A stretch of 64,000 bases of DNA from Flavobacteriaceae bacterium PS02337 (lineage in GTDB: Bacteria; Bacteroidota; Bacteroidia; Flavobacteriales; Flavobacteriaceae). Made by a program: the position numbers and the translations under genes. Under the pieces are notes generated by a model. The model did not search any database. It was not told where the DNA came from and worked only from the letters and a program-made list of their open reading frames with translations. This document shows positions 2,890 through 63,418 of this stretch, piece after piece (the first letter of the stretch is position 1; the number at the start of each line of letters is the position of its first letter). Location: the NCBI GenBank assembly GCA_029959285.1, contig JASCOE010000003.1, positions 453,481-517,480 of the forward strand, read 5' to 3'.

Positions 2890-3930
2890 TTATTCACAGC
2901 CTTTTCCGTCTAAAATGACTGTGCCAGCTTTATTATATCGGTATTCAGTTTCTAAAACACTGCTGATAACTTTCAAGACATGATCTAAATCTTCTTCATT
3001 CAAGAAACTCGCAGTTATTCGGCAATTTTTAATTTTTTCATTTGAGATTAAAATCTGCACTTTGTATTTTTGAGATATTAGAGAAACAGCTTCAGCCATA
3101 TTAATATCATCTAGAATCAGGTAATTGCTTTTCCATTCGGTTACAACAGCCGCACTTACAGTATTCTGTTCAAAATTCATTGTGCTTTTATTGACTTTAA
3201 TCTGTTGATTTGGAGTAATTACACCATATACTTTTTCGATATCTCCAACCTGAACTTTTCCTCTTGCAACTGTAACTTCCACATTATCTGAAGAATTTTG
3301 TGCATTAATATTAAAAGCGGTTCCTAAAACTCTAGTCTGAATTTTACCTGTATGTACGATAAAAGGTTTTTTAGGATTGTGTTTAATATCAAAAAAAGCT
3401 TCTCCGGTAAGTGTTACTTCACGGGTTTTAGAATCAAAAGAATTCTGATCGTATTTTAAAGTACTGTTATCATTTAAGAGAACTGTACTTCCGTCAGGTA
3501 AATGAACCAATTGTTTACCACTAAAGTCAATTAAAGTATTTTGTGCAATAACTTCTGGTGACTCAGGCGTAACTGGAAGAACTGTCTTTTGCTTAAAAAA
3601 CAACGAATTTCCCAAAGCAATCAACAAAGCAATGCTGGCTGCAGCAAAAAGCGATTGTAAAATTATTTTTCTTCTTCGCTTCGGGTTTAAATCAACCACT
3701 TTAGGTTCATTTTGTGGCTTAGATAAAATGTAATTCAGAATATCATCACTCTGTTTTTTATCCATAACTTCGGTAACTTCTTCTTTTTCCAGCAGATTCT
3801 GAATTTTTTCTTTTAGAAAATCATCATAAGTCCCCTGCTGAATTATTTCCATCATTTGCTGCTGTTCTGCATCGGATAATTTGTTCTGCAGATAGCTTTC
3901 AAATAATTCTTCGAATTTTTTTTGCGACAT
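2890..3930 (-). CDS. FecR-family anti-sigma factor
   Basis: Inner-membrane anti-sigma regulator of 346 residues. It carries an envelope signal from the STN domain of the neighbouring SusC to the cytoplasmic ECF sigma factor. The N-terminal 80 or so residues are cytoplasmic and rich in Gln, Glu and Lys. A single membrane helix lies at about 90-110 after a basic RRRKI stretch. The periplasmic FecR domain at about 130-230 contains LPDGSTVLLNDNSTLKY, GEAFFDI and RVLGTAFNI. The C-terminal segment (about 265-340, NYLILDDINMAEAV to SVLETEYRY) looks like the DUF4974 domain typical of Bacteroidota FecR proteins. It lies between the sigma gene and susC, all on the minus strand. A long T tract sits in its upstream gap. 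Confidence 0.95.
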   Translation of the reverse strand: MSQKKFEELFESYLQNKLSDAEQQQMMEIIQQGTYDDFLKEKIQNLLEKEEVTEVMDKKQSDDILNYILSKPQNEPKVVDLNPKRRRKIILQSLFAAASIALLIALGNSLFFKQKTVLPVTPESPEVIAQNTLIDFSGKQLVHLPDGSTVLLNDNSTLKYDQNSFDSKTREVTLTGEAFFDIKHNPKKPFIVHTGKIQTRVLGTAFNINAQNSSDNVEVTVARGKVQVGDIEKVYGVITPNQQIKVNKSTMNFEQNTVSAAVVTEWKSNYLILDDINMAEAVSLISQKYKVQILISNEKIKNCRITASFLNEEDLDHVLKVISSVLETEYRYNKAGTVILDGKGCE

Positions 3931-3978
3931 TTTTTCGTAGATTAAATTAGTTCTTGTTAGTTAATGATAGATTTTGGA

Positions 3979-4014
3979 TTTTTTTTTTCTTTTTTTTTTT
4001 TTTTTTTTTTTTTT
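3979..4014. repeat. long homopolymer T tract
   Basis: Ten T, one C, then 25 consecutive T on the plus strand (3979-3988 and 3990-4014). It lies in the gap between the ECF sigma gene and fecR, about 50 bases upstream of the fecR start. Runs of this length are prone to slippage and also to sequencing error. Confidence 0.95.
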
Positions 4015-4169
4015 CAGCCCTTCTTATTTTAGGGTTAAGACACGTTTAAAATGTCCCTTTTATATAAAGACCATTGAAAAAAGGGGAGGGAGTAGTCGAA
4101 AGTGAAAAAAATGTAAAAAAAATGTAAATAAAAGTAAAATGAGTCTTTTTTGAAGGAAAAAACTTTAGA

Positions 4170-4775
4170 CTAAATATTGAAAAAAAGAAGAAGCGACATG
4201 AACATATTCATGTACGGAGAAATTTTAAGACGTATAAATTTTAAAGCCTGTGCCATATGTTTTTTTACAGTCTCTGTAGAAATTCCTAAATCTTCTCCAA
4301 TTTTTTGATGGCTTAAACCATCTCTCTTAGCCATTTGATACACTTTTTGCTGTTGTGGAGGAAGTTGTTCCACTATCTGATTTAAAATAGTGTTGTACTG
4401 CTCATCTTTTATATTCATATCAGTATCTATAACCGCAGTTTCTTTCTGATCGAACTCAGATATCAGATTGGTTTCTCTCGCAATTTTCTTAATTGAATTG
4501 AATAAATGATTTCGGGAAATTATAAAGATATAATTCTCAAAACTAGATATTTCGGCTAGATTTTCACGATTCTGCCAGATTTTCAAAAAGATATCCTGAA
4601 CAGCTTCTTCAGCTAAAATTTTTGATTTAGTAATTTTTAATGCTGTACCGTAAACAATATTTTTGTAATTGTTATACATGTTTGTAAATGCAAGCTCACT
4701 TCCTTGAGACAATTCAAGAAGAAGTTTTTTTTCATCGATATGTGAATTTTGAGCCATTTTTTTACTAACTATCAA
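4170..4775 (-). CDS. RNA polymerase ECF-type sigma-70 factor (FecI-like)
   Basis: Alternative sigma factor of 201 residues, expected to direct RNA polymerase to the downstream susC operon when released by the FecR-type partner. Region 2 is at about 25-95: YNNYKNIVYGTALKI, then ILAEEAVQDIFLKIWQNRE. Region 4 is at about 135-190: QLPPQQQKVYQMAKRDGLSH, then IGEDLGISTETVKKHM forming the helix-turn-helix. A start at the second Met (4757) is equally possible and would give 195 residues. It heads the ECF-FecR-SusC set and is divergent from the M28 peptidase gene. No clear housekeeping promoter was found for it. Confidence 0.95.
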   Translation of the reverse strand: MIVSKKMAQNSHIDEKKLLLELSQGSELAFTNMYNNYKNIVYGTALKITKSKILAEEAVQDIFLKIWQNRENLAEISSFENYIFIISRNHLFNSIKKIARETNLISEFDQKETAVIDTDMNIKDEQYNTILNQIVEQLPPQQQKVYQMAKRDGLSHQKIGEDLGISTETVKKHMAQALKFIRLKISPYMNMFMSLLLFFNI

Positions 4776-16884: not shown

Positions 16885-16892
16885 TATATTTG
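16885..16892 (+). promoter_or_regulatory. minus-7 promoter element of the attenuator leader
   Basis: TATATTTG at 16885-16892 matches TAnnTTTG and lies 17 bases before the first leader-peptide ATG. No convincing TTG was found at the minus-33 position. Confidence 0.5.
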
Positions 16893-16909
16893 CGCTTCAA
16901 ATCAAGCAA

Positions 16910-16960
16910 ATGAAAAACTTAATTACTATCATTTCTATTATCATTATTATCATTCGATAA
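16910..16960 (+). CDS. isoleucine-rich leader peptide 1
   Basis: A 16-residue reading frame, MKNLITIISIIIIIIR, with nine Ile codons. It is followed 43 bases after its stop by a strong rho-independent terminator (17004-17034). This is the classic layout of transcription attenuation by isoleucyl-tRNA supply: ribosome stalling on the Ile codons would let RNA polymerase read through. Confidence 0.85.
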   Translation: MKNLITIISIIIIIIR

Positions 16961-17003
16961 TCGTGCAGGGATGTTATATAAATAAGTAAAAAATAAAACT
17001 TAG

Positions 17004-17034
17004 AAAACCTCCCCATAAAACGGGAGGTTTTTTT
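17004..17034 (+). terminator. attenuator terminator 1
   Basis: AAAACCTCCC (17004-17013) pairs with GGGAGGTTTT (17022-17031) over an eight-base loop, followed by T to 17034. Confidence 0.92.
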
Positions 17035-17047
17035 GTTTACAGCAATT

Positions 17048-17107
17048 ATGAAAAATTTAGTTCAAAATAGCATTATTATTTCAATTATCATTATTCGTTT
17101 TACATGA
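17048..17107 (+). CDS. isoleucine-rich leader peptide 2
   Basis: A 19-residue frame, MKNLVQNSIIISIIIIRFT, with seven Ile codons. It begins only 14 bases after terminator 1 and is followed by terminator 2. No room is left for a promoter between terminator 1 and this ATG, so it lies on the same transcript as leader 1. The similar start (MKNL) and Ile run suggest it arose by duplication. Confidence 0.82.
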   Translation: MKNLVQNSIIISIIIIRFT

Positions 17108-17132
17108 CGAGTTAGGAATATATTGTCTATAC

Positions 17133-17169
17133 AAAAAAGCCTTTCTCAATTATGCGAAAGGCTTTTTTT
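17133..17169 (+). terminator. attenuator terminator 2
   Basis: AAAAAAGCCTTTC (17133-17145) pairs perfectly with GAAAGGCTTTTTT (17156-17168), with a T run to 17169. The ilvN-like start codon follows 35 bases later. Confidence 0.92.
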
Positions 17170-17203
17170 ATACCTGAAAAAAAGCACAATTAACAAATAC
17201 AAA

Positions 17204-17713
17204 ATGAAAAACGAATTTACACTTACCATTTACTCCGAAGATCAATTAAGATTAATTAATAGACTTACTTCCATGTTTCTTAGAAAACAAGTGGAAGTTT
17301 TGAGCCTTAATATGTCTGTTTGCGAAATTGATAAAATGTACCGCTATACAATTGTAATAAGAGAAACGCTTGATCAAGCGCGTAATTTAGCGGCACAAAT
17401 AGAGAAAATTATAGAAGTATATAAATGTCATTTTAATTGGAATGAAGAAACGGTTTTCAGACAAATAGCGTTATTCAAAATTCCGACTGAGTTATTTATG
17501 ACAGAAACAAAAATGGAATCATTACGTAAAATAAATGATTTCAAAATTTCAGAAATTCATAAAGAATATACCATAATTGAAGCGACAGGAGCAGAAGAAG
17601 AAATAAATTCTTTTACTGAAAAATTACGTTTTTTTGGATTGATTGAATTTGTAAAAAGTTCTAGAATTGCTCTTATAAAAACGAAGGAAGGTTTTTGTGA
17701 AGAAATCGAATAA
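17204..17713 (+). CDS. ilvN: acetolactate synthase small (regulatory) subunit-like protein
   Basis: ACT-domain protein of 169 residues that resembles the regulatory subunit of acetohydroxyacid synthase, the first common enzyme of isoleucine and valine synthesis. The N-terminal ACT domain (about 3-75) reads FTLTIYSEDQLRLINRLTSM and VEVLSLNMSVCEID. The C-terminal domain has ETVFRQIALFKI and FGLIEFVKSSRIALIKT. The start at 17204 is chosen because an earlier ATG at 17123 lies before terminator 2. The ilvB, ilvC and ilvD genes are absent nearby, so this is an orphan copy. Control by two tandem Ile attenuators supports a role in branched-chain amino-acid metabolism. Confidence 0.85.
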   Translation: MKNEFTLTIYSEDQLRLINRLTSMFLRKQVEVLSLNMSVCEIDKMYRYTIVIRETLDQARNLAAQIEKIIEVYKCHFNWNEETVFRQIALFKIPTELFMTETKMESLRKINDFKISEIHKEYTIIEATGAEEEINSFTEKLRFFGLIEFVKSSRIALIKTKEGFCEEIE

Positions 17714-63281: not shown

Positions 63282-63418
63282 GTAGAGGCGCACCGCATTG
63301 CGTCTTCTGCGCACCATATGTCCCATGTATATAATAAGGAGCTGTTTCCCGCTATCCGCTTCAATCTTTTGCGCCGAACCCCGGCACAAAAGGATTTCCG
63401 CTTCTATCGGGGCTATGG
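63282..63418. repeat. mosaic of two dispersed repeats
   Basis: TAGAGGCGCACCGCATTGCG (63282-63301), continuing to TCTTCTGCGCA, resembles dispersed elements with the word pair AGAGRCGCA/TGCGTCT. Next comes an element with AGCTGTTTCCCGCTATCCGC (about 63340) and AAAAGGATTTCCGCTTC, ending CTATCGGGGCT (to about 63415), the layout of a common Flavobacterium intergenic repeat. The region is notably GC-rich and not coding. Confidence 0.65.

Follow-up and report, generated by a model that had tools for sequence, protein, structure and literature searches.

Two predicted isoleucine attenuators in series, apparently inherited from an ilv operon, precede a lone and putatively valine-blind ilvN-like gene in Flavobacterium

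The ilvGMEDA and ilvBN operons of Escherichia coli are controlled by ribosome-mediated leader-peptide attenuators, and to our knowledge each of the classical ilv operon attenuators is a single one. Leader-peptide attenuation has also been described for ilvBNC of Corynebacterium (PMC11857589). The array reported here resembles these attenuators in that an open reading frame (ORF) rich in codons for the end product, and an antiterminator opposed to an intrinsic terminator, stand before branched-chain genes; it differs in that complete units, two here and three elsewhere in Flavobacteriaceae, follow one another in series and serve the same amino acid. The Salmonella mgtCBR leader, referred to as "tandem attenuators", likewise has two short ORFs, but it senses ATP and proline, whereas our array would read one signal; moreover, the mgtCBR leader, unlike metE, is reported to lack two intrinsic terminators, which our array possesses (PMC3641672). 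In mefA/msrD two leader peptides serve the same inducer, an arrangement termed a double-lock, but the inducer is erythromycin, and the first attenuator controls mefA and msrD and the second only msrD, whereas both units described here stand before one gene (PMC10314930). Tandem T-box riboswitches are another case of same-signal serial control of amino-acid genes (PMC12452182, PMC7583486), for which a digital, pseudo-cooperative response is expected (PMC12452182); T-boxes, however, bind tRNA directly, and our array has no Rfam match at gathering score. In some Gammaproteobacteria the rimP leader has a second tandem terminator before one gene, but its description, in the part available, includes no leader peptide that reads amino acids, as our units have (PMC2965389), and the two leader peptides of ermB act translationally (PMC8274638). 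For Flavobacterium psychrophilum, clues to leader-peptide attenuation before amino-acid operons have been mentioned in general terms (PMC9723704). Within the open literature (subscription papers fell mostly outside this scope) we found no report of serial leader-peptide attenuators for the same amino acid; the closest tandem leader-peptide attenuators found there respond to different signals (mgtCBR) or to an antibiotic (mefA/msrD).

Our analysis concerns a stretch of 64,000 nucleotides (hereafter "the window"), which is part of contig C33 of the 5.7-Mb genome of Flavobacteriaceae bacterium PS02337. At 16885–17713 a promoter motif is followed by leader 1, terminator 1 (T1), leader 2, terminator 2 (T2) and a gene for an IlvN-like protein (Table 1). 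This confirms the order, with one promoter at the far end, given in a preliminary description of the window. The promoter element matches TAnnTTTG, which we take to be the Bacteroidetes-type -7 motif and the class to which TATATTTG belongs. In all 36 aligned copies of the array this motif lies upstream of leader 1. None of the 36 has it in the stretch from T1 to leader 2, and none in the stretch from T2 to the gene, the place where the preliminary description had considered an independent promoter; on this ground we reject an extra promoter ahead of leader 2 or of the gene. TTG 17123, given as the start in the ORF list, is an unlikely start of the gene, as ATG 17204 is conserved among relatives.

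Table 1. Elements of the array and their positions in the window
Feature	Position	Strand	Remarks
Promoter -7 element TATATTTG (presumed class)	16885..16892	+	TAnnTTTG match; sole such motif in the array
Leader peptide 1 MKNLITIISIIIIIIR	16910..16960	+	9 Ile codons, none ATA; alignable in 36 loci
Antiterminator half, attenuator 1 GGGATGTT	16968..16975	+	Candidate pairing with 17006-17013
Intrinsic terminator 1	17003..17034	+	Stem AACCTCCC/GGGAGGTT and U tract; -16.4 kcal/mol, z -4.35; stem covaries
Leader peptide 2 MKNLVQNSIIISIIIIRFT	17048..17107	+	7 Ile codons, none ATA; alignable in 36 loci
Antiterminator half, attenuator 2 GAGTTAGG	17109..17116	+	Candidate pairing with 17140-17147
Intrinsic terminator 2	17133..17169	+	Stem GCCTTTC/GAAAGGC plus A/U, U tract; -16.5 kcal/mol, z -5.83
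Lone ilvN-like gene, 169 aa	17204..17713	+	AHAS small-subunit paralogue lacking valine-site residues

Under a strict definition, which asks for a terminator and for at least six Ile within 12 residues, neither strand of the window has any unit besides the two of the array, and 12 dinucleotide-shuffled versions (768 kb) contain none; a looser definition (six Ile, Leu or Val) brings in three further units in the window, two of them on the plus strand and the third on the minus strand, with two in the 12 shuffles. Together the two leaders comprise 16 Ile codons and one Val codon. The codon ATA accounts for 16 of the 588 leader Ile codons in the 36 loci; for ORFs of the window with at least 250 aa the corresponding figure is 237 of 1232. 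A search of the genome for an ilv operon with a leader of its own, as proposed in the preliminary description, identified ilvD-B-N-C, located after leuA-leuB, with the single leader MQISIIITSVVVVNVIHTSASGMV that contains both Ile and Val codons; the genome encodes one AHAS catalytic subunit. Compared with this Ile/Val leader, the nearly pure Ile composition of the window pair fits a gene meant for isoleucine shortage. At gathering score no known RNA family, T-box included, was detected at the array; the only such match in the window is a Flavo-1 RNA (63341-63418, minus strand, 78.9 bits). On contig C52 of the same genome we observed two short ORFs in series, each followed by a terminator (L119, ~3872-4180 and 4657-4764), some 480 bases upstream of a SAM riboswitch (RF00162), perhaps another stacked leader, in a cluster of what are presumably methionine/aspartate-family-like genes. 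On the same contig a receptor-like gene is preceded by the leader-like ORF MKFTVCNMMSCKMPEFSAETLL and a terminator (L099, ~1500-1625), with a SAM-II riboswitch on the opposite strand.

In the genus alignment, the terminator stems are paired in 97.2% (T1) and 96.9% (T2) of cells, with compensatory changes; in T2 a G-C pair is changed to A-U in 10 of 36 copies. The antiterminator half (region 2) starts at the eighth base past the leader stop in unit 1 and at the second base in unit 2; in both units it would be covered by a terminating ribosome. Its predicted duplex with the terminator reaches -8.3 kcal/mol in each unit (shuffle p 0.023 and 0.04 for units 1 and 2; z of the window folds -1.3 and -1.75) and is paired in 89.6% and 96.8% of cells, respectively, within the genus. 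Per sequence the signal is modest, with better values than shuffles at p<0.05 in 13 of 36 loci for unit 1 and 9 of 36 for unit 2, and no compensatory change was found within the genus in the antiterminator of either unit. In L030 and L049 the A1 pairing after the stop is absent, because the leader ORF extends through region 2.

Since covariation of the antiterminators is absent within the genus, we used a family-wide arm-swap test instead. Over 79 attenuators, region 2 pairs with the arm of its own terminator at a mean of -9.17 kcal/mol, compared with -6.56 (sd 0.27) for permuted arms; none of 5000 permutations was as low, although this figure is no exact probability, because related sequences are not independent. 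The terminator arms vary by lineage across the family, and region 2 varies along with them. For example, region 2 of the CTGTATC class (17 cases, frequently TGATACAG) yields -9.9 when matched with arms of the same class and only -3.4 to -3.9 with those of the other main classes. Such a preference is not seen in every class: in the CCTCCC class (10 cases, including unit 1 of the window) the own arm gives -4.25, no better than the other arms of the class at -3.95, and in several members region 2 is overrun by the leader ORF. For the window units better-pairing arms exist, amounting to 32% of all arms for unit 1 and to 57% for unit 2, the arm of which was taken too short in the test. Overall, the comparison supports co-evolution of the antiterminator halves with their own terminators across the family.

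The preliminary description had suggested a survey of relatives for the double array. Sixteen relatives of the lone protein in named genomes all come from Flavobacterium (61-72% identity over the best segment), and both leaders are present in all of them. Among 200 Flavobacterium genomes, 104 have some match to the lone protein. All 16 matches in type-2 operons were inspected; about 88 others showed 32-38% identity, and the 27 of them that were fetched all lie beside ilvB. We identified 24 ilvN-like genes away from ilvB (17 full-length and 7 shortened), a count that leaves out the remaining matches of the ~88 group as well as G050, G074 and G185. All 17 full-length cases belong to genomes of 5 Mb or larger. 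The leader-terminator pair is present in 24 of 24; it was recognized, by covariance models derived from 36 loci, as an A1-type match with an A2-type match no more than 100 bases downstream. Because many of these loci had also served to train the models, independent support comes from the leaders read directly, which revealed the pair in 41 of 41 loci, or 36 after removal of duplicates (L022, L024, L025, L026 and L028, left out of the alignments, have contigs of the same length and sequence as those of L015, L008, L012, L016 and L018, respectively). The genes around the lone locus vary between lineages. In L066, an insert of ~85 bases, with an inverted repeat recognized by eye, lies between T1 and leader 2, and both units are intact.

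We propose that transcription from the one promoter would run through one complete leader-peptide attenuator and then a second, each of which reads Ile codons. With charged Ile-tRNA, the ribosome would reach the stop codon and cover the antiterminator half, so that the terminator could form and transcription would stop at T1 or, after leaking past T1, at T2; with the ribosome stalled on Ile codons, the antiterminator would form. As the gene is reached only after both checkpoints have been passed, read-through should multiply, and the multiplied read-through would leak less and respond more steeply than a single attenuator. We consider serial isoleucine attenuation very probable: the two Ile checkpoints in series envisaged in the preliminary description are backed by the anatomy of the array, by its conservation in all 24 genes away from ilvB and by the family-wide co-evolution of antiterminators with terminators. 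The isoleucine response itself and the multiplication, like the AHAS binding and valine insensitivity discussed below, are our inference. It is possible, although on balance we think it unlikely, that the two units serve only to prevent leakage, as a double lock, and do not make the response steeper; the two erythromycin-sensing attenuators of mefA/msrD have been called a double-lock guarding against basal expression (PMC10314930), but leak control and steepness would both follow from multiplication.

Where the array came from can be traced in its relatives. In a phylogenetic tree all ilvN copies away from ilvB form one clade (SH-aLRT 100), nested within type-2 operon IlvN, although the tree was a quick one, without bootstrap and with a long-branch warning, and the branching within the clade is unsure. 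Relatives carry such a pair before ilvEDBNC, ilvBNA, ilvNA or a lone ilvN. The ancestral site is marked by a DUF4136 gene (179 aa) upstream of the ilv arrangements. This gene precedes full type-2 operons in L051 (ilvE-D-B-N-C with two attenuators), L052 and L117 (one attenuator) and L056 (none found), the pair with ilvB-ilvN-ilvA in L055, and the pair with ilvN-ilvA in five of the seven shortened cases (L063, L066-L069); it was not seen in the flanks of the other two, L064 and L065. It also lies upstream of ilvA with one unit, both in L109-L115 and in the window genome itself (contig C44, L091), where ilvA has a single A1-type unit, MKNFNNIIIAIISIIAIQQ, at the ancestral site. Elsewhere in the window genome A1-type matches are weak (at most 41 bits; 21 rows, E up to 10), and inspection of five loci revealed no further Ile unit. 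A second A1 match without an A2 partner (92-111 bits) is present in all 17 genomes with full-length copies, and in the five that were fetched it lies before ilvA. This pattern indicates that the window pair moved together with ilvN and that ilvA was left in place with a single unit. A duplicated operon is suggested by G187, where the pair precedes ilvN-ilvA and one unit precedes a second ilvA.

On this comparative evidence, we interpret the window pair as the inherited control region of a larger, lost ilv operon. The preliminary description had called a double attenuator for a lone regulatory subunit unusual; the lone gene does have the pair, but the predicted serial attenuator was not made for it, since two or three attenuators stand before ilv genes in 8 of 53 genera of Flavobacteriaceae, where such series recur.

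The lone protein exceeds the domain cut-offs for ALS_ss_C (51.7 vs 23.2) and ACT_5 (29.1 vs 27), and stays below them for ACT_AHAS_ss (14.5 vs 27), TIGR00119 (56.2 vs 56.9, 0.7 bits short) and NF008864 (72.4 vs 119). It is like IlvN/IlvH, the small subunit of acetohydroxyacid synthase (AHAS), in combining an ACT domain with ALS_ss_C and in its place within type-2 operon IlvN in the tree; it differs from them in that no ilvB adjoins it and in that the equivalents of Gly14, Asn11 and Asn29 are replaced. Asn11 and Asn29 of E. coli IlvH we take to be valine-site residues. As for Gly14, the three residues from this position on are described, in a report on the E. coli protein, as having the greatest impact on valine inhibition (PMC13158618). 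Valine-site residues were scored by alignment to E. coli IlvH, and the window protein has Arg at the position of Gly14 and Glu at that of Asn29. Gly14 and Asn11 are kept in all 39 ilvB-linked IlvN. Full-length copies away from ilvB have lost Gly14 in 22 of 28 cases (it is kept in six), Asn11 in 27 of 28 and Asn29 in 26 of 28. Within the clade of the window protein Gly14 is lost in 19 of 19, with Arg or Lys instead, and among the shortened copies it is kept in five of seven. Type-2 operon IlvN has Ser at the position of Asn29 in 9 of 16 cases, so that a change there carries less weight by itself.

In E. coli, valine-sensitive AHAS is inhibited when valine is in excess, and the cell can then run short of isoleucine. 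We suggest that in severe isoleucine starvation, for instance from excess valine, the lone subunit would join the single AHAS catalytic subunit of the genome, and that the enzyme with this subunit would stay active despite valine. A valine-blind subunit held back by two gates and made only upon shortage of charged Ile-tRNA would be well suited to relieve starvation caused by valine; with two gates on the lone gene and one on ilvA, the product of the lone gene would be made later than IlvA. On whether the lone protein is a valine-blind AHAS small subunit, our own judgement is evenly poised.

Instead of AHAS, the lone protein may serve IlvA (threonine deaminase) or another partner as an ACT regulator of the isoleucine pathway. 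ilvA lies directly downstream in 8 of the 24 genomes, behind the full-length copy of G187 and behind all seven shortened copies, in which the C-terminal half is reduced, and in the same genome both ilvA and the lone gene have Ile attenuators. On the other hand, the AHAS-specific ALS_ss_C domain is kept (9.2e-14), and AHAS entries make up all of the 23 best Foldseek matches, albeit with TM-scores of only ~0.4 and for a predicted structure of moderate confidence (pLDDT 66.7, pTM 0.42), used for the fold match only; the adjacency of ilvA is accounted for by descent from ilvB-ilvN-ilvA. We regard this alternative as rather unlikely for the window protein. The shortened IlvN-like proteins themselves (L063-L069; 142-146 aa, right before ilvA) possibly have a new partner role.

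Returning to the lone gene as an AHAS small subunit, one may ask whether it has a present role at all. The preliminary description had considered the array the scar of a lost ilv operon, and survival of the intermediates ilvB-N-A, N-A and N would fit a decaying leftover in which attenuators and gene serve no present role, as would a dN/dS above that of the operon copies. By simple counting, the median dN/dS in the clade of the window protein is ~0.17 (usable pairs, 156 of 171), roughly six times the value for type-1 operon IlvN (0.028; 40 of 105); type-2 operon IlvN has 0.048 (6 of 120), and the five shortened copies that were compared have 0.30 (10 of 10). Judged by these ratios, the lone gene is under relaxed yet non-neutral, purifying selection, and both attenuators persist in 24 of 24 genomes although the neighbouring genes vary by lineage, which makes decay improbable. 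The part of the earlier proposal that concerns descent of the array holds, given the intermediates in relatives and the ancestral site in the window genome; the gene is kept under selection. The other role proposed for it, tuning of the feedback sensitivity of a catalytic subunit encoded elsewhere, appears partly right: a selected gene with a changed valine site fits altered feedback.

Serial attenuators of this kind are not confined to the lone gene. We identified ilvD in 108 of 139 Flavobacteriaceae genomes, 106 of them outside Flavobacterium. Every other one of these 106, which made 53 genera, was scanned over 1.8 kb upstream of the gene. One attenuator was found in 27 genera, two in seven, three in one and none in 18, while the antisense strand gave a single attenuator in 1 of 53 and shuffles gave none in 106. 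The A2 model detected 29 loci outside the window genome, of which 10 have two or three units. Three units precede ilvD-ilvB-ilvN in three Flavobacterium genomes (L101 in G009, L102 in G197 and L103 in G193), where unit 1 is of the Ile/Val type and units 2 and 3 are near-identical copies of the Ile type. Both module types, A1 and A2, are found singly or in series, and since each also occurs singly, including before the ilvA of the window genome, each would be self-sufficient. The predicted attenuator modules of this family thus stand alone or in series, with a number of stages that varies from one to three. The view that the Ile-rich short ORFs are themselves small hydrophobic toxins or other proteins, with the terminators as ordinary 3' ends, finds some appeal in the hydrophobic 16-19 aa peptides with a terminator after each, but is hardly credible, as such units precede ilv genes in many genera, the leaders of full ilv operons often have added Val codons, the antiterminators co-evolve with the terminators and leader 2 has no promoter motif.

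The explanation as a whole, in which serial isoleucine attenuators inherited from an ilv operon control a valine-blind emergency small subunit, is in our opinion moderately likely. More tentatively, and for the family at large, we speculate that arrays of one to three attenuators for the same amino acid may form a modular, tunable gate in Flavobacteriaceae, and that in Flavobacterium with large genomes an operon leftover may have become a double-locked, valine-blind override of AHAS feedback, which would be made only when isoleucine starvation is severe and would free the single AHAS from valine. Serial attenuators for the same amino acid would turn the textbook attenuator into a cascade in which the number of stages varies naturally from one to three, and this variation offers a ready basis for comparing genomes to learn whether the stages multiply, make the response sharper or just cut leak. 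The lone gene suggests that a simple override of feedback may be achieved by swapping the regulatory subunit rather than the enzyme.
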